The notes below the pieces were generated by a model. It made no database searches and had not been told where the DNA came from. It was given only the letters and a program-made list of their open reading frames with translations. The position numbers were made by a program, and so were the translations under genes. This document shows positions 7,068 to 18,469 of a stretch of DNA of 36,379 bases, piece by piece. Each line of letters begins with the position of its first letter. The first letter of the stretch is position 1. The stretch comes from Nitrospiraceae bacterium (GTDB lineage: Bacteria > Nitrospirota > Nitrospiria > Nitrospirales > Nitrospiraceae), in NCBI GenBank assembly GCA_900299325.1, contig OMJK01000055.1:1-36379 (forward strand). The letters are read 5' to 3'.

Positions 7068-7208
7068 ATGTGGGAATTCTTTTTCTTATTAATGTTGCTC
7101 ATCATTGCTGGTTACCTTAGTGGAATTCGGTCAGCACTAGACGAGGTTATTGAGGTACTCCATAAAATCGCCGATACGATTCCACGGTCAAACGGACCCA
7201 CTATCTAG
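7068..7208 (+). CDS. 46-residue single-pass membrane peptide, function unknown
   Basis: This short frame has an excellent ribosome binding site (AAGGAGGGG, 7057-7065) just before ATG 7068 and ends at TAG 7206-7208. The product begins MWEFFFLLMLLIIAGYLSG, a membrane helix at about 3-18. It continues as a charged amphipathic helix (SALDEVIEVLHKIADTI) and a short polar tail. Base composition is markedly more AT-rich than all neighbours, which could mean recent acquisition or selection on a small hydrophobic gene. Small helix-plus-amphipathic proteins often modulate larger membrane complexes, but nothing here identifies a partner. Coding status is inferred from the ribosome binding site and the coherent membrane pattern. 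Confidence 0.6.
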   Translation: MWEFFFLLMLLIIAGYLSGIRSALDEVIEVLHKIADTIPRSNGPTI

Positions 7209-7220
7209 CGTTTCCATGGC

Positions 7221-7249
7221 TTGACAGGGGACACGCACCCCAGTAAGAT
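7221..7249 (+). promoter_or_regulatory. Sigma70-type promoter of the pyr operon
   Basis: A perfect TTGACA (7221-7226), a spacer of 17 bases and TAAGAT (7244-7249, 4 of 6 including the key T1, A2 and T6). Transcription would start at about 7256, just before the PyrR-type hairpin. Confidence 0.6.
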
Positions 7250-7263
7250 CAGGCTGCCTTTAA

Positions 7264-7347
7264 TGCTCATCCTGCGAGGTGAGCAAGGAGCCCACAATGA
7301 AGTCCGCTCCGGCCTCTGGCCGGTCAGTCCAACCGAACCTTCTTGCT
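7264..7347 (+). promoter_or_regulatory. PyrR-binding hairpin and antiterminator of the pyr leader
   Basis: TGCTCA (7264-7269) and TGAGCA (7280-7285) form a perfect 6-bp stem enclosing TCCTGCGAGG. This matches the core UCC-N-G-N-GAGG of PyrR-binding loops known from Bacillus pyr operons. The 3' arm shares AGCA with AGCAAGGAG (7282-7290), which can pair over nine bases (one G-U) with CTTCTTGCT (7339-7347). The latter is the 5' arm of the terminator that follows. The three elements are therefore mutually exclusive in the order expected for PyrR attenuation: PyrR with UMP would stabilise the first hairpin, block the antiterminator and permit termination. The pairing is read directly; the regulatory behaviour is inference from the Bacillus system. 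Confidence 0.75.
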
Positions 7348-7371
7348 GCAGCACAGCGAGAGGGTTTTTTT
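7336..7371 (+). terminator. Attenuator terminator in the pyr leader
   Basis: A 13-bp stem, AACCTTCTTGCTG (7336-7348) with CAGCGAGAGGGTT (7354-7366), includes three G-U pairs and a five-base loop CAGCA. Seven T (7365-7371) follow. It lies 130 bases before pyrR and competes with the antiterminator. Confidence 0.75.
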
Positions 7372-7396
7372 GTGTCTGAAATCTGGAAACACGCCA

Positions 7397-7483
7397 TCAG
7401 CGATCAGCATTCAGCTGTCAGCTTTTGGCCCATACTTCGAAGAATTGATGGCGGGCTGCTGAAAGCTGATTGCTGAGGGCTGA
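7397..7483 (+). repeat. TCAGC-heptamer inverted repeat between the attenuator and pyrR
   Basis: The left arm (7397-7422) is built from TCAGC units spaced about seven bases apart. The right arm (7458-7483) is built from GCTGA units. The two arms are reverse complements at about 21 of 26 positions. The right arm is followed by GCTTTTT, so the RNA hairpin might also slow or stop transcription. It looks like a dispersed intergenic repeat rather than part of the attenuator. Confidence 0.6.
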
Positions 7484-8068
<585 letters not shown>

Positions 8069-8081
8069 AGGGGAGGGAGTC

Positions 8082-9002
8082 ATGAGTCTGAAGCGCAAAG
8101 ACCTGCTCAGCCTCGCGCCGCTGTCGGTGGATGAGATCAAGCTGATCCTCGAGACGGCGGAGTCGTTCAAGGAGGTCACCGGCCGCGAGATCAAGAAAGT
8201 GCCGGCTCTGCGGGGCCGAACCGTTGTGAACCTCTTCTTCGAGCCGAGCACAAGGACGCGCACGTCGTTCGAGTTGGCCGCCAAGCGGTTGAGCGCGGAT
8301 GTGATCAACTTCTCTCCGTCGTCGAGCAGTGTGGTGAAGGGCGAAACCCTGCTCGATACGGCCCGTAATATCGAAGCCATGCAGGCCGACATCATCGTGC
8401 TGCGGCATTCGTCGGCCGGCGCCGCGGAAACGCTGGCGCGGGGTGTGAAGTCGTCGGTCATCAACGCCGGCGACGGGTGGCACGAGCATCCTACGCAGGC
8501 GCTGCTCGATCTCTTTACGATCCGCGAGCGCGGCATGCAGTTCGACGGGTTGCGCGTGGCGATCGTCGGGGACGTGTCGCACAGCCGGGTCGCGCGCTCG
8601 AACATCTATGCGCTGACCAAACTGGGTGCGGAGGTGCGGCTGGTTGGGCCGCCCACCATGATGCCGGCCCAGGTCGAGAAGCTCGGCGTCAAGGTCTACC
8701 ACGACCTCGATACCGCGCTGTGCGGCGTGCAGGTAATCATGATGTTGCGCATTCAGTTAGAGCGGCAGGGGCGGGCCATGTTCCCGAGCATCCGGGAATA
8801 TGCGCGGCTCTATGGGCTGACGTCCGAGCGGGTCAAGCTGGCCGAGCCGGGTGCGATTGTGATGCATCCCGGACCGATCAATCGGGGCGTCGAGATCGCG
8901 CCGGAAGTGGCCGATAGTCTGTCGTCGGTGATCTTGGATCAGGTGGCGAATGGCGTGGCGGTTCGTATGGGAATTCTCTACTTAATGTCAGGAGCAAGTT
9001 AA
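8082..9002 (+). CDS. pyrB: Aspartate carbamoyltransferase catalytic subunit
   Basis: A 306-residue enzyme of de novo UMP synthesis that condenses carbamoyl phosphate with aspartate. The carbamoyl-phosphate loop [13 protein letters not shown] is at 52-64, with Ser56, Thr57 and Arg58. HPTQ lies at 136-139, followed by LLDLFTI. Near the C-terminus is the aspartate-domain motif [11 protein letters not shown]. The length fits the usual 300-310. A good GGGAGGGAG ribosome binding site precedes ATG 8082. No pyrI regulatory subunit is nearby, so this is probably an unregulated trimer or a dodecamer with PyrC. The gene sits 13 bases after pyrR and three bases before pyrC. Confidence 0.97.
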
Positions 9003-9005
9003 ATC

Positions 9006-10289
9006 GTGGCGATATTGATCAAAGGCGGGCGGGTCGTCGACCCCGGGCGGCAGAACGGTGTGGTGGATGTGCTGATCGACGGCGGAAAAATCGCCGCGGT
9101 CGGACCGAATCTCCAGGCGCCGGCCGGCAGCACCATTATTCAGGCCAAGGGGCAGCTGGTATTGCCCGGACTGGTGGATCTGCACGTGCACTTCCGCGAG
9201 CCGGGCTTCGAATACAAAGAAACGATTCAGAGCGGCAGCGCGTCGGCGGTGGCCGGCGGGTTCACCACGGTCTGCTGCATGCCGAACACCAGTCCGGTCA
9301 ACGACAATCAGGCGGTGACGGAGTTCATTCTCGACCGGGCCCGGACGGCGGGGTTGGCCAACGTGTTGCCCATCGGCGCAATCACCAAAGGCTCGGAGGG
9401 CAAGGAACTGGCGGAGATCGGTGATTTGCGCCGCTCCGGCTGTGTCGCGATTTCCGACGACGGCCGGCCGGTGATGAACAGCCTCGTCATGAGGCGCGCG
9501 ATGGAATACGCGATGGCGTTCGATCTCGCGGTGGTCGATCACTGCGAAGACCTGCATCTGGCCGAAGGCGGGTGCATGAACGAAGGGCTGGTATCGACCG
9601 AACTCGGCTTGCCCGGCATTCCGTCGGCGGCGGAAGACGTGATGGTGGCCCGCAACCTGTCGTTGTCGGAGCTGACCGGCGCACGGCTCCATCTGGCGCA
9701 CATCAGCACAGCCGGATCTGTCCGCATGGTGCGGGAGGCCAAGGCGCGCGGGATCCACGTCACGGCCGAAGCCTGCCCCCATCACTTCACGCTGACCGAA
9801 GAAGTGGTGCGGGGCTACAACACGCACGCGAAGATGAATCCGCCCCTGCGGACCTGGCAGGATGTGCAGGCGATCAAAGAGGGGCTCAAGGACGGGACGA
9901 TCGACGTGATCGCCACGGACCATGCGCCGCACGCGACGCAGGAGAAGCAGCAGGACTTTACCGAAGCGCCGTTCGGCATCGTGGGACTGGAGACGGCGCT
10001 CTCGCTGACGCTCGGACTGGTCGAGGAAGGCGTGCTGTCGCTGGAGCAGGCGGTGCAGAAACTGACTTCCGGGCCGGCTGTGGCCTTCGGCCTGGCCAAG
10101 GGCACGCTGGCGGTCGGTGCCGATGCCGATGTGGCGCTGGTCGATCCGAACGAGCAGTGGGAAGTGGATCCCGGAAAATTCCGGTCGAGGAGCCGGAATA
10201 CGCCGTTTGCCGGCTGGAAAGTCAAAGGGCGGGTGCGCACGACGATCGTCGGCGGGCGCGTGGTCTTCGAAACGAACGGCGCCGGGTAG
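9006..10289 (+). CDS. pyrC: Dihydroorotase, class I
   Basis: A 427-residue amidohydrolase that cyclises carbamoyl aspartate to dihydroorotate. The metal ligands are intact: DLHVH (His60, His62) followed by FREPG, HCED further on, LAHIST, and ATDHAPH with the catalytic Asp. This argues for an active enzyme rather than the inactive PyrC' (PyrX) paralogue that sometimes follows pyrB. The length and the MPNT motif after the first metal site are typical of the long (class I) type. The start is GTG at 9006, with AGGAG at the end of pyrB as ribosome binding site. Close spacing to pyrB implies translational coupling. Confidence 0.96.
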   Translation: MAILIKGGRVVDPGRQNGVVDVLIDGGKIAAVGPNLQAPAGSTIIQAKGQLVLPGLVDLHVHFREPGFEYKETIQSGSASAVAGGFTTVCCMPNTSPVNDNQAVTEFILDRARTAGLANVLPIGAITKGSEGKELAEIGDLRRSGCVAISDDGRPVMNSLVMRRAMEYAMAFDLAVVDHCEDLHLAEGGCMNEGLVSTELGLPGIPSAAEDVMVARNLSLSELTGARLHLAHISTAGSVRMVREAKARGIHVTAEACPHHFTLTEEVVRGYNTHAKMNPPLRTWQDVQAIKEGLKDGTIDVIATDHAPHATQEKQQDFTEAPFGIVGLETALSLTLGLVEEGVLSLEQAVQKLTSGPAVAFGLAKGTLAVGADADVALVDPNEQWEVDPGKFRSRSRNTPFAGWKVKGRVRTTIVGGRVVFETNGAG

Positions 10290-10292
10290 ATC

Positions 10293-10811
10293 GTGGGACG
10301 GGGAACGCGTTGGGGGCTGGTGCTCTGTCTTACGGGTGAGTGGATCGGGCTGGCGCTCTGGATCGGCGGGTTGGTCGTGCTGATTGCGGCGGTGTTGCCC
10401 GCGGTCTTCAACACGTTCGGTGGACAGGATGCCGGCGGGTTGTTCCTCACGCGGGCGTTCGAAGGCTACAACCGGCTCGTGCTCGGCGCCATCGTGCTGG
10501 TGGCGGGCGGGATGGTCTGGCGGGGGTGGGCGGTGCCAACCTATGCGCCGTCACGGAGCGAAGTCTGGTGTGCGGGGGTGATGGTGCTGATTGCCGCGAC
10601 GATCATCTTCTATCTGCATCCCCTGGCGGCGGCGCGGCAGGCCGAGGCCTTCGCCTTGAAAGCCGGCGAAGGTCGGAAGGAAGCCTTTGAAGCCTTCTTC
10701 AAGCTGCATCTGCCGGTGCGCACCCTCTATATGGTAAACCTGTGCCTGGCTATCGGGCTGGTGGGCCTGCGGACGAAAGCCTGGGTCAAACGGATGGAGC
10801 AGGGCGTATGA
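10293..10811 (+). CDS. DUF4149 / TMEM205-like integral membrane protein
   Basis: A 172-residue membrane protein with four predicted helices at about 10-34, 60-77, 92-109 and 143-161. The E-W-x-G-L-A-L-W-I-G-G motif in the first helix, the inter-helix PAVFNTF and the [14 protein letters not shown] stretch match the DUF4149 family as I know it. The biochemical role is unknown. The start is GTG 10293, three bases after pyrC. The stop overlaps the carA start in ATGA. Its position inside the pyrimidine operon suggests co-expression rather than a role in the pathway. Confidence 0.75.
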
Positions 10812-11986
10812 AGGCGGCGGTGCTGGCATTGGCGGACGGGACCGTGTTCACAGGGCGCGCCCTCGGTTACGAGGGGGAAAGCGCCGGCGAAGTGGTGTTC
10901 AACACGGCCATGACGGGGTACCAGGAAGTGCTCACCGATCCCTCTTATAAAGGACAGATCATTACAATGACCTGTCCTCACATCGGGAACTACGGAGTGA
11001 CGCCGGAGGATGTCGAGTCACGGCGCATCTGGGCGGAAGGGTTCGTGGTCATGGAGGCCAGCCGGCTGATCAGCAACTGGCGCAGCCGGGAGCGGATTCA
11101 CGACTATTTGCAGCAGGCAAAGATCGTCGCCATCGAAGGGCTCGATACGCGGGCGCTGACGCGGCATTTGCGCGAGCAGGGATCGCAGCAGGGCGTGATC
11201 ACCCACGTCGATCTGGATCCGGCGCGGGCGGTGCAGAAAGCCAAACGCGCGCCGGGGATCGTCGGGCGCGATCTGGCCGCCGAAGTGACGTGCAAAGACA
11301 CGTACGCCTGGAGCGAAGGATCGGGCGAGTGGGCGCCGGTTGCACAGTCGTCCAATGGACGGGCGCCGCACGCGCGGCGCTGGCGGGTGGTTGCGTTCGA
11401 TTTCGGCGTGAAGGAGAATATCCTGCGGCGACTGGTCGACGTCGGCTGCCAGGTGACGGTGGTGCCCGCATCGACGACGGCGGCCCAGGTGAAGGCGCTC
11501 AATCCGGACGGAATTTTTCTTTCGAATGGGCCCGGCGATCCGGAAGGGGTGCCCTATGCCATGGAGGCGGTGCGCCAGCTCATCGGCTACCGGCCGATCT
11601 TCGGGATCTGCCTGGGGCATCAGATTCTGGGGCTGGCCTGCGGCCTGAAGACGTACAAATTGAAGTTCGGGCATCATGGCGCGAACCATCCGGTGCTGGA
11701 TCTCCGGACGAGGAAGGTCGAGATCACCTCGCAGAATCACAATTTCGCCGTGCAGGTCCCGGTGCCGTTCACCGGCGTGCCGGCCCAGCCGCCGGTGGTC
11801 GAAACGCCGTTCGGCCGGGTCGCGATCACGCACGTGAGTTTGAACGACCATTCGATCGAAGGCATGGTGTGTCTGGATCGGCCGGTGTTTTCGGTGCAAT
11901 ACCATCCGGAGGCGTCGCCCGGCCCGCACGATTCGGCCTATCTCTTTCAGGAATTTGTGCAGCTCATGGAGAAATCGCATGCGTAA
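10808..11986 (+). CDS. carA: Carbamoyl-phosphate synthase small (glutaminase) subunit
   Basis: A 392-residue class I amidotransferase subunit that releases ammonia from glutamine and channels it to CarB. The N-terminal CarA-specific domain ([32 protein letters not shown]) is followed by the glutaminase domain. In the latter, the nucleophile Cys268 lies in FGICLGHQ and the His366/Glu368 pair in [12 protein letters not shown] 10808 is chosen over upstream in-frame starts because it overlaps the preceding stop (ATGA) and matches the usual N-terminus. The 3' end overlaps sppA by eight bases. In this operon, carA and carB are separated by two protease genes, which is unusual. Confidence 0.97.
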
Positions 11987-12932
11987 CCGAGGATCTGTCG
12001 CGCTGTTGGCCGGCATGGTGCTGGCCGGCTGCACCATCAACATTCCGCTCTTTCCAGGCCCGGGGCCGTTGCAGGAAACGCAGGTCGGTGGAACGGGCAC
12101 GGCCAAGGTGCTGCTGCTCGACGTCTCGGGCATGATCAGTTCGCAGGAAGGGGACGGGTTGGTCCCCACGCCGGGCATGATCGCCCACTTTAAGGAAGAA
12201 CTGACCCGCGCGGCTAAGGACGAGGAGATCAAGGCTGTCGTCGTGCGGATCAACAGTCCCGGCGGGACGGTGACGGCGTCGGACATTCTTCATCACGAGC
12301 TGAAAGCGTTCAAAGCCGCCCGTAAGATTCCCGTCATCGCGTCGATCATGGACGTCGGCGCCTCGGGCGGCTACTACATTGCGGCGGCGACAGACATGAT
12401 GTTCGCCCATCCCTCGACAATCACGGGCAGCATCGGCGTTATCATGCTCACGGTCAACGCGCGCGGGCTGTTGGAAAAAGTCGGCCTGGAGGCCTCGGCG
12501 GTGACGTCGGGGCCGCGCAAGGATATGGGGTCGCCGTTCCGGCCCATGACGCCGGAGGAGCGGGCGCTTTTTCAGGAGCTGATCGATTCGATGTACCAGC
12601 GGTTTCTGACCGTGGTGCAGGACGGACGGCCGAAATTGTCGATGGAGCAGATCAAAAAGCTGGCGGACGGCCGGGTCTACACCGGCGAGCAGGCGAAGGC
12701 GGCCGGGCTGGTGGACGAAATCGGCTATCTGGAGGATGCGATCGACACGGCGAAGAAACGCGCGGGACTTACCGAGGCGCGCGTGGTGATGTATCGCCGG
12801 CCCGGCGAGTACTCGAACAACGTGTATTCGAAAGCGCTGACCGGCAACGGATTGGCAGGACTGGCGCAGTTGGATGTGATGTCGTTTGTGCGGGGCGGCA
12901 CGCCGCAGTTCATGTATCTGTGGATGCCGTAA
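11979..12932 (+). CDS. sppA: Signal peptide peptidase SppA-type protease (S49), lipoprotein
   Basis: A 317-residue single-domain S49 protease. A short lipoprotein signal ends in LAGC with Cys18 as the lipid anchor, replacing the usual membrane helix. The protease domain has INSPGG (91-96), the nucleophile Ser129 in GASGGYYIA and the general base Lys181 in [10 protein letters not shown], the expected Ser/Lys dyad. SppA enzymes degrade cleaved signal peptides and, in some cases, regulate membrane stress. ATG 11979 is chosen because it lies eight bases before the carA stop, has GGAGA just upstream and gives a clean lipobox. It is followed after seven bases by the M48 protease gene, so two envelope proteases form a pair here. 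Confidence 0.9.
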
Positions 12933-12939
12933 CGGAACG

Positions 12940-13899
12940 ATGACGGCAAGTTCAAACGAGACAATCGACCGGGTGTTCGGCAGCGTCGTGGGACGCCGGG
13001 CTGCGCTCGCGCTCGGCGCGCGCACGGTCGCCGGCCTGACGGCGGCGCTGGGCGCGGGGGCCGCGTTGAGCCTCTTCTCGTCGCTGGCCGGATGCTACCG
13101 TGCGCCGGGCACGGGCCGCGACCAGCTGATTTTTTTCTCGGAAGAAAAGGAAATGCAGTTCGGGATCGAGGCCTATCGCGAGGTCCTGCGCGAGTCCCGG
13201 TTGAGCGAGAATCCGGAAACGACGGAGATGGTGCAGCGCGTCGGCCAGCGCATTGCCCAGGCGGCCAACAAGCCGGCCTATCAATGGGAGTTTGCCGTCA
13301 TCGAAGAGGACAAGATGATCAACGCGTTCTGCCTGCCCGGCGGGAAGGTCGCGGTGTTCACGGGCATTCTCAAAGTGACGAAGGGCGAGGCGGGACTGGC
13401 GACGGTGATGGGGCATGAGGTCGCGCATGCGCTGCAGCGCCACGGCGTGGAGCGGATGAGCCGGAGCATCATCGACCAGATCGCGCAGCTCGGCGCGTTG
13501 GGTGCAGCAGTGGGCGGGCATGCCGGCGGCGGCGCCGTGCAAGGATTGCTGGGCGCTTACGGCGTGAACGTGTCGCTGCCGTTCAATCGCAAGCAGGAAT
13601 CCGAGGCCGACTATATCGGATTGCGGCTGATGGCGGCGGCCGGATTCGATCCGCGGGAGGCTGTGCCGTTCTGGGAGCGGATGAGCGGCTGTCCGCGCAC
13701 CATGATCGACAAGGTGTGTTTCCGGTCGCACCAGTCCATCCCGGAATTTCTCTCGACCCATCCGTCCGACGTCACGCGGATCAATCAGATCGAAGCCTGG
13801 CTGCCGGAGGCGCTCCAGTATTATCGGGGCAGCAACGCGGTGCCGCCGCCGAAGGTGCCCTATCGCCCGCTGATCGGTCCCATGCCGCAAGCCAGTTAA
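12940..13899 (+). CDS. M48-family metalloprotease, probable exported lipoprotein
   Basis: A 319-residue zinc protease with HEVAH at 159-163 and the downstream zinc-ligand motif ESEAD at 220-224. This resembles the periplasmic LoiP/BepA type rather than the membrane-embedded HtpX. The N-terminus carries Arg19-Arg20 followed by a long hydrophobic stretch and SLAGC with Cys52. The signal therefore looks like a twin-arginine-type lipoprotein signal, although the residues around the arginines are not a textbook Tat motif. The probable role is quality control of outer-membrane or periplasmic proteins. ATG 12940 is preferred over further upstream codons, which would run into sppA. It is paired with sppA and sits between carA and carB. 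Confidence 0.88.
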
Positions 13900-13912: not shown

Positions 13913-17179
<3,267 letters not shown>

Positions 17180-17191
17180 GAGAACGGACGC

Positions 17192-17668
17192 ATGCCGACG
17201 CCGATTACCAAAAAAGGATACGATGCGCTCAAGGCCGAGTTGGATCGTCTGCGCAAAGTCGAGCGGCCGAACGTGATCGAAGCCATCGCGGAAGCGCGCG
17301 CGCACGGCGACCTGAGCGAAAACGCCGAGTACGATGCGGCCAAGGAGCGGCAGGGGTTCATCGAGGCGCGCATTGCCGAGCTGGAATCGAAGCTGGCGGA
17401 CGCGCGCATCGTGGAGATCGCCGGGCGCACGACCGAAACGGTGGTGTTCGGCGCGACCGTGCTGGTGGTCGAGCAGGAATCGCAATCGAAAAAACGGTAC
17501 ACGCTCGTCGGGCAGGACGAGGCGGACATGAAATTCAACAAAATCTCCGTCCAGTCGCCGGTGGGGCGGGCGCTGATCGGCAAGCGCGTGGGCGATTTCG
17601 TCGAAGTGAAGACGCCGGTCAAGATGGTGGAGTACGAAGTCGTGGAGATCAAGTTCGAGGAACTCTAA
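17192..17668 (+). CDS. greA: Transcription elongation factor GreA
   Basis: A 158-residue factor that inserts its coiled coil into the RNA polymerase secondary channel and stimulates cleavage of backtracked RNA. The N-terminal coiled coil starts TPITKKGYDALKAELDRL. The tip carries acidic residues in HGDLSENAEYDAAKERQ, the usual GreA signature. The C-terminal FKBP-like domain ends with SPVGRALIGKRVGD. The length is exactly typical. The stop at 17668 is immediately followed by the GTG of the next gene. Linkage to carB is common in several phyla. Confidence 0.97.
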   Translation: MPTPITKKGYDALKAELDRLRKVERPNVIEAIAEARAHGDLSENAEYDAAKERQGFIEARIAELESKLADARIVEIAGRTTETVVFGATVLVVEQESQSKKRYTLVGQDEADMKFNKISVQSPVGRALIGKRVGDFVEVKTPVKMVEYEVVEIKFEEL

Positions 17669-18469
17669 GTGCCGCAGGCACCGCCGCTGATCACGCTGCT
17701 GACGGATTTCGGCGACCGCGACTGGTTCGTCGCCAGCATGAAGGGGGCGATCCTCACGATCAATCCCGCCGCCCGCATCGTCGACCTTACTCATCACATC
17801 GCTCCGCACGACATCGCCGGCGCCGCCTACGTACTCGGCGCCTGCTACCGGTCGTTCCCCGACGGCACGATCCATGTCGTGGTGGTGGATCCGGGGGTCG
17901 GTACGGCCAGGCGGCCGCTTCTTGTGTCCACGTCCCGCTGCACGTTCGTTGCGCCCGACAATGGCGTGTTGAGCCACGCGCTTGCGCAGGAATCTGTCGT
18001 CGATGTTCGGCAGCTTGAGCACGCGCAGTACAAACTGCAATCCGCCGGTTCGACCTTCGACGGCCGCGACGTGTTCGCGCCTGCAGCCGCCTGGCTCAGC
18101 ACGGGCGTCCGGCCGGAATCGTTCGGCCGGGTGCTGCACGATCCGGTCACGATGGCCATCGCCGTTCCGCGCCAGGAGGGGCAGGCGCTGGTCGGCCAGG
18201 TCGTCTATGTGGACCGGTTCGGCAATCTCATTTCCAATCTCACGCCGCAGCATCTTCGCGACGCGCAGGCCCTGACGAAGCGGTCGTCGCCGCGCATCGG
18301 CATCGGCGCGTACACGATCGAGGGGTTGGTGGGCAGCTACAGCGAGGGGACCACGGGCGCGCCGCGGGCGCTGATCAACAGCCACGGCTATCTGGAAATC
18401 TTCGTGAAGGAAGGCCGGGCGTCGGATGTGGTCAAGGCGGCGCGGGGCGAACGCATCACGATCGCCTAA
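17669..18469 (+). CDS. SAM hydrolase (SAM:hydroxide adenosyltransferase) family protein, variant active site
   Basis: A 266-residue member of the former DUF62 family, which includes SAM hydrolases making adenosine and methionine, and distant halogenases. Motifs are TDFGDRDWFVASMKG (12-26), THHIAPHDI, VVDPGVGTARRPL with Asp74 and Arg81, APDNGVLS, and YVDRFGNLISNL in the C-terminal domain. In characterised hydrolases the third catalytic residue is a His in an FHGRD motif. Here it reads TFDGRD, with Asp131 at that place, so catalysis may differ or be lost. The start is GTG 17669, directly after the greA stop. The gene ends the operon and overlaps the convergent bioA gene by four bases. Confidence 0.85.
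   Translation: MPQAPPLITLLTDFGDRDWFVASMKGAILTINPAARIVDLTHHIAPHDIAGAAYVLGACYRSFPDGTIHVVVVDPGVGTARRPLLVSTSRCTFVAPDNGVLSHALAQESVVDVRQLEHAQYKLQSAGSTFDGRDVFAPAAAWLSTGVRPESFGRVLHDPVTMAIAVPRQEGQALVGQVVYVDRFGNLISNLTPQHLRDAQALTKRSSPRIGIGAYTIEGLVGSYSEGTTGAPRALINSHGYLEIFVKEGRASDVVKAARGERITIA

Follow-up and report, generated by a model that had tools for sequence, protein, structure and literature searches.

A predicted PyrR attenuator with a leader reading frame in front of the pyrimidine operon of a Nitrospiraceae bacterium

The pyrR leader and the operon behind it

The window (the whole stretch of DNA analysed, 36,379 nucleotides of contig OMJK01000055.1 from a Nitrospiraceae bacterium) contains a pyrimidine operon that begins with pyrR and is preceded by a leader with a promoter, a hairpin, a reading frame and a terminator (Table 1). 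From pyrR to the SAM hydrolase family gene all genes are co-directional. The run stops at 18469 and is followed by a convergent aminotransferase. A consensus promoter was looked for between positions 7480 and 18700, and none was found. The original prediction had extended control by the leader over carAB, two proteases, greA and the SAM hydrolase family gene. The co-directional order and the missing internal consensus promoter agree with this extent and, to judge from this arrangement, the leader likely controls the entire run from pyrR to the SAM hydrolase family gene.

Table 1. Coordinates of the leader features and of the genes downstream (window positions)
Feature	Position	Strand	Remarks
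Sigma-70-type promoter	7221-7249	+	TTGACA 7221-7226, 17-nt spacer, TAAGAT 7244-7249; 10/12 consensus matches
PyrR-binding hairpin (predicted)	7257-7288	+	lower stem CCUU 7257-7260/AAGG 7285-7288; upper stem GCUCAUC 7265-7271/GGUGAGC 7278-7284; loop CUGCGA 7272-7277; RF00515 match, upper stem covaries in 136 relatives
Antiterminator 5' strand	7278-7290	+	contiguous register 7282-7290/7339-7347; bulged register 7278-7283 and 7285-7288/7338-7347
AAGGAG	7285-7290	+	doubles as 3' arm of the lower stem and as Shine-Dalgarno sequence for the leader frame; kept in relatives
Leader reading frame	7297-7476	+	ATG 7297-7299, 59 codons, TGA 7474-7476; spans the terminator and T run
Intrinsic terminator	7335-7371	+	stem 7335-7367 (14 pairs), loop 7349-7353, T run 7365-7371; arms covary
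pyrR	7502-8068	+	regulator and uracil phosphoribosyltransferase; NF003549 244.6 bits (cut-off 138); best solved relatives are PyrR structures
pyrB	8082-9002	+
pyrC	9006-10289	+
DUF4149 protein gene	10293-10811	+	lies between pyrC and carA, within the operon
carA	within 10742-11986	+
SppA-type S49 protease	11955-12932	+
M48 protease	12886-13899	+
carB	13913-17179	+
greA	17192-17668	+
SAM hydrolase family gene	17669-18469	+	last of the co-directional run

The leader matches RF00515, the Rfam family of PyrR binding sites, from end to end (window positions 7253-7373, model positions 1-115 of 115). The score of 44.7 bits (E-value 3.9e-5 in the 351-nt stretch searched) is lower than the gathering score of 54: an Rfam search of the window at the gathering threshold gave no match, and RF00515 was obtained in a permissive search. 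This is the single RF00515 match in the organism's own whole genome. The PyrR loop pattern alone is uninformative, with 11 matches in the same genome. The leader fold has a minimum free energy z-score of -3.55, and none of 200 dinucleotide shuffles was equally stable. The position of the promoter is kept across the 53 members checked of the window's family, and the transcript is expected from this position to start at about 7256.

Judged by its sequence, structure and context, the leader at 7221-7371 is a PyrR attenuator. The claim of a complete attenuator just upstream of pyrR in an apparent Nitrospirota genome was borne out in the promoter, the hairpin, the terminator and the end-to-end RF00515 match, and pyrR lies about 130 nt downstream. 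Two of its details need correction. The 3' arm of the hairpin and the antiterminator were said to have four bases in common; seven were counted, AGC of the upper stem and AAGG of the lower stem. The Shine-Dalgarno sequence and the ATG codon of the leader, which open a frame through the terminator, had been overlooked.

Two further elements flank the leader. Upstream, a 46-codon frame at 7068-7208 with a hydrophobic start (MWEFFFLLMLLIIAGYLSG...) ends 12 nt before the -35 box and has no Pfam match. Between the terminator and pyrR lies an imperfect inverted repeat (7388-7492) with arms at 7388-7422 and 7458-7492 that are 77% complementary. Four further contigs of the genome carry partial copies (30-34 nt, 85-93% alike), and the repeat resembles a dispersed palindromic element. 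The stop codon of the leader frame falls within it.

Distribution and covariation of the element

RF00515 matches with an E-value of 0.001 or better were counted in a phylum set of 296 Nitrospirota genomes. The element was found in 208 of them, 46 over the gathering score, and pyrR over the cut-off in 279. Among the 17 genomes lacking pyrR over the cut-off, 15 also lack the element, and in the remaining two it sits near a contig end that truncates pyrR. The element thus occurs in 0 of the 15 genomes without a convincing pyrR, against 208 of the 281 others. The figure of 208 is a lower bound, as 14 of 20 genomes with pyrR and no listed element show the PyrR hairpin upstream of pyrR. The clearest exception is the genus g60 (L321-L323), in which pyrR is present and the upstream stretch contains no recognisable PyrR hairpin.

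Individual lineages depart from the common arrangement. In the family f27 (L324, L325) the PyrR hairpin is found close to pyrR with no evident terminator, and the 5' arm of the hairpin, GGATGG, is complementary to a downstream CCATCC. These leaders look as if control were translational. One genome of the window's family (G161) carries two RF00515 elements on different contigs (L055, L056), both with a leader frame.

Outside Nitrospirota, RF00515 was detected in the control genomes of Bacillus, Lactococcus and Thermus and in 36 of 121 Chloroflexota genomes. A single element was found among 145 genomes of Verrucomicrobiota. Many Actinomycetota possess a PyrR hairpin before pyrR. The setting outside Gram-positive bacteria, which the original prediction had pointed out, is therefore ordinary for the phylum, and Thermus, Chloroflexota and Actinomycetota provide further cases. 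No account of a PyrR leader from Nitrospira turned up in a literature search that covered few subscription papers. In a survey of 43 RNA families across 255 genomes PyrR is moderately distributed, and the main text contains no mention of Nitrospira (PMC3766115).

Covariation was analysed in 151 elements of the phylum, representing more than 25 families. Among 136 relatives, the six upper base pairs of the PyrR hairpin give 816 cells, of which 789 hold standard pairs; shuffles reached a mean of 637 and a maximum of 669. Several pair types occur at each position of the upper stem, and the C, G and G of the loop are invariant. The arms of the terminator pair far better with their own partners than with those of other leaders (own versus cross pairing, z = -27 pooled and -3.7 to -10.6 within families). 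The check proposed for the leader, compensatory changes among relatives, was thereby answered positively for the hairpin and terminator helices.

The leader reading frame and the antiterminator

A Shine-Dalgarno sequence in or just after the 3' arm of the hairpin, followed at the right distance by a start codon chosen by rule, is found in 145 of the 151 leaders (ATG 104, GTG 31, TTG 10). ATG placed 9-14 nt after AAGG occurs in 52 of the 53 members of the window's family and 101 of the 151 phylum leaders, compared with 10 of 47 controls (mostly Bacillota) and 9% of shuffles. Among 119 dereplicated leaders, 106 have the frame open beyond the terminator's 5' arm; the other two frames are open this far in 27 and 57 (binomial p about 3e-34, without correction for kinship). 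The safeguards of these frame tests against kinship are the many families included and the use of the other frames of the same DNA as control. Averaged over 27 families, openness is 86%, against 23% and 44%. A stop no more than 18 nt from the end of the arm, or beyond it, was found in 118 of the 119; the other frames gave 32 and 70. The control set, mostly Bacillota, has no such frame advantage (9, 7 and 12 of 22). Some observations speak against a role of this frame in attenuation. Leaders of the family f2 often have a frame that stops level with the arm's end or 14 nt short of it, without crossing the terminator, and 41 of the 145 start codons are GTG or TTG. In the minimum-energy fold of the window the Shine-Dalgarno sequence of the leader is partly paired.

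A second Shine-Dalgarno sequence and start of the type GGAG(G/T)CAGCGTGAGCTGC was noticed in several distant families (L254, L274, L275, L024, L269, L233). The motif is an inverted repeat whose small loop holds the GTG start codon.

Comparison among relatives shows the hairpin, the terminator, the promoter, the Shine-Dalgarno sequence with its start codon and the open frame. Binding of PyrR to the hairpin, the role of UMP as signal, translation of the leader frame and read-through as its result are inferred. The preferred reading, with a probability of about 0.68, is a PyrR-controlled attenuator of pyrR-pyrB-pyrC-carA-carB in which PyrR-UMP would block the leader ribosome so that the terminator forms. 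Transcription would start just before CCUUU. When UMP is high, PyrR-UMP would bind the hairpin, and the lower stem CCUU/AAGG would conceal AAGGAG. With AAGGAG concealed there would be neither a ribosome start nor an alternative pairing, and the terminator would stop transcription. When UMP is low, AAGGAG would be exposed and a ribosome could start at AUG 7297 and translate into the 5' arm of the terminator. A ribosome on this arm would keep the terminator unfolded and transcription would reach pyrR. Without a loaded ribosome, a bulged antiterminator formed by these bases may take over this role in the window's family. For other bacteria, the opposing effects of UMP and PRPP and the use of an antiterminator have been described, with leader mutants studied in Streptococcus pneumoniae (PMC6296669). 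Should the hairpin act on the leader frame, PyrR in Nitrospirota would switch transcription largely through the ribosome, and not by RNA refolding alone as in Bacillus.

The antiterminator speaks for a different reading, a pure Bacillus-type attenuator. There PyrR-UMP would stabilise the anti-antiterminator, the 3' arm of the hairpin would otherwise pair with the 5' arm of the terminator, and the frame would be irrelevant. The nine-base antiterminator of the original prediction is present in the window, where AGCAAGGAG can pair with CUUCUUGCU over 9 bp (contiguous register). Its first eight pairs are all present in only 11 of the 53 members of the window's family, and it was rejected as the conserved antiterminator. 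Absence of an antiterminator was also rejected, because a bulged register is conserved in this family, in which GGUGAG, a bulged C and AAGG pair with CCUUCUCACC. All nine inner pairs of the bulged register are present in 51 of the 53 members, and it is 97% paired, against 45-64% for slid registers. In its four variable columns the changed base still pairs in all but two cells, with almost only wobble-compatible changes, and the two next columns of the terminator arm vary freely. Since the register is kept, its variable columns still pair and the adjoining ones are free, the alignment argues for some constraint from the antiterminator in the window's family. The mean energy of the antiterminator duplex in this family (-12.2 kcal/mol) is as strong as in the Bacillota control (-10.7 kcal/mol). 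Most leaders also retain CCUUC, or a sequence close to it, in the 5' arm of the terminator. With the bulged register so widely complete, a purely Bacillus-like mechanism may still operate in the window's family.

Other results tell against the pure Bacillus-type reading. Outside the window's family the pairing is weaker, with mean duplex energies of -6.6 to -10.3 kcal/mol. Folding predictions for the stage at which the terminator still lacks its 3' arm give the antiterminator in 44 of the 151 phylum leaders, against 31 of 47 controls. At this stage the predicted probability in the window is 0.88 for the hairpin and 0.10 for the antiterminator. Own versus cross pairing of the antiterminator gave z-scores of 0.2, -1.6, -0.9, 0.0 and 0.7 within families, a comparison with little power where the arms hardly vary, as in the most uniform families. 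The control, which is mostly Bacillota, gave -7.9; pooled over the phylum the value is -4.1. This reading would also leave the conserved start codon and the open frame unexplained, and it is judged unlikely.

The conserved Shine-Dalgarno sequence, start codon and open frame could also belong to a small functional protein, the attenuator being a separate device. The leader peptide is however not conserved. The frame is typically about 15-40 codons long and its length varies freely among relatives, its phase against the terminator differs between relatives, including near ones, and spacer indels are multiples of three in only 1 of 26 cases. Because the peptide varies and the indels so rarely preserve the phase, the feature that was kept is probably a translating ribosome at the terminator and not the peptide. 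A functional small protein is thus very improbable.

Translational control of pyrR of the Actinomycetota type, with an incidental terminator, has equally little to recommend it. Actinomycetota leaders share the hairpin, and there the Shine-Dalgarno sequence serves pyrR. In the window the hairpin does not hide pyrR's own ribosome site: the last base of the leader frame is 7476, pyrR begins at 7502 with a GAGGGA of its own in front, and a covarying terminator lies between the hairpin and the gene. Finally, the score under the gathering threshold might suggest a degenerate or chance look-alike of RF00515 without function, which the conservation and covariation across the phylum refute.

Comparison with known PyrR systems

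PyrR attenuation is a standard textbook example of a protein that refolds RNA. The leader shares with the pyr attenuators of Bacillus subtilis, and with RF00515, the loop C-N-G-N-G-A, the CCUU/AAGG lower stem, the T-tailed terminator and the downstream pyrR. As in B. subtilis, the AAGG arm can alternatively pair with the 5' arm of the terminator. Unlike in Bacillus, a Shine-Dalgarno sequence and start codon follow the hairpin and a frame runs through the terminator, the antiterminator lacks own-versus-cross coevolution within families, and nearly every genome has one element. Bacillota leaders have a long antiterminator and no leader frame. The statement that the architecture mirrors Bacillus pyr leaders could be upheld only in part: the 9-bp antiterminator is seldom complete in the window's family, the antiterminator shows no coevolution within families although the Bacillota control does, and the statement had missed the leader frame.

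In Chloroflexota both arrangements are found. A start codon and a frame into the terminator are present in 18 of 31 leaders, as in Nitrospirota. A second group of leaders, similar to that of a Dehalococcoidia genome (L110), differs: the antiterminator is long, and a leader frame is mostly missing. The mean antiterminator energy is -16.0 kcal/mol in leaders without a frame and -9.3 kcal/mol in leaders with one, and a few leaders have both. As frameless leaders have a strong antiterminator and framed ones a weaker one, the sequences suggest that antiterminator and leader frame may be two interchangeable solutions. The two groups, with a strong antiterminator (L288-L291, L296, L297, L299, L303, L309) and with a leader frame (L294, L300-L302, L310, L313, L314), form a natural contrast for testing the ribosome model.

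Leaders of Actinomycetota (Mycobacterium smegmatis type) share the hairpin; its 3' arm reads AAGGAG(G), and a start codon follows within a few nucleotides. There, however, the start codon is that of pyrR itself, the first PyrR residues can be read directly behind it, and no terminator intervenes. Work on M. smegmatis reportedly found PyrR control to be translational. If the ribosome model is true, the modes of Bacillus and Mycobacterium would be linked by one common sequence that is both Shine-Dalgarno and stem.

For the phylum as a whole we consider it probable, with a little less assurance than for the window, that PyrR gates the leader ribosome and thereby termination, that the peptide is irrelevant and that the window's family has kept the antiterminator as a second route. 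The same hairpin would then be wired to three outputs across phyla: an antiterminator, the ribosome site of pyrR and the ribosome site of a leader.

The closest likeness is to Thermus. For Thermus strain ZO5, Van de Casteele et al. are said to have proposed in 1997 that PyrR blocks translation of the leader and that a translating ribosome prevents the terminator, reportedly with no antiterminator. In the window, too, the ribosome site lies in the AAGGAG arm of the hairpin, where pairing would hide it, and the leader frame reaches the terminator. What differs from the proposal is that an antiterminator-like pairing is also conserved in the window's family. The mechanism of the Nitrospirota leaders would thus most resemble the 1997 Thermus proposal, yet it is not classified as the same thing. 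If true, it would give that proposal broad comparative support.
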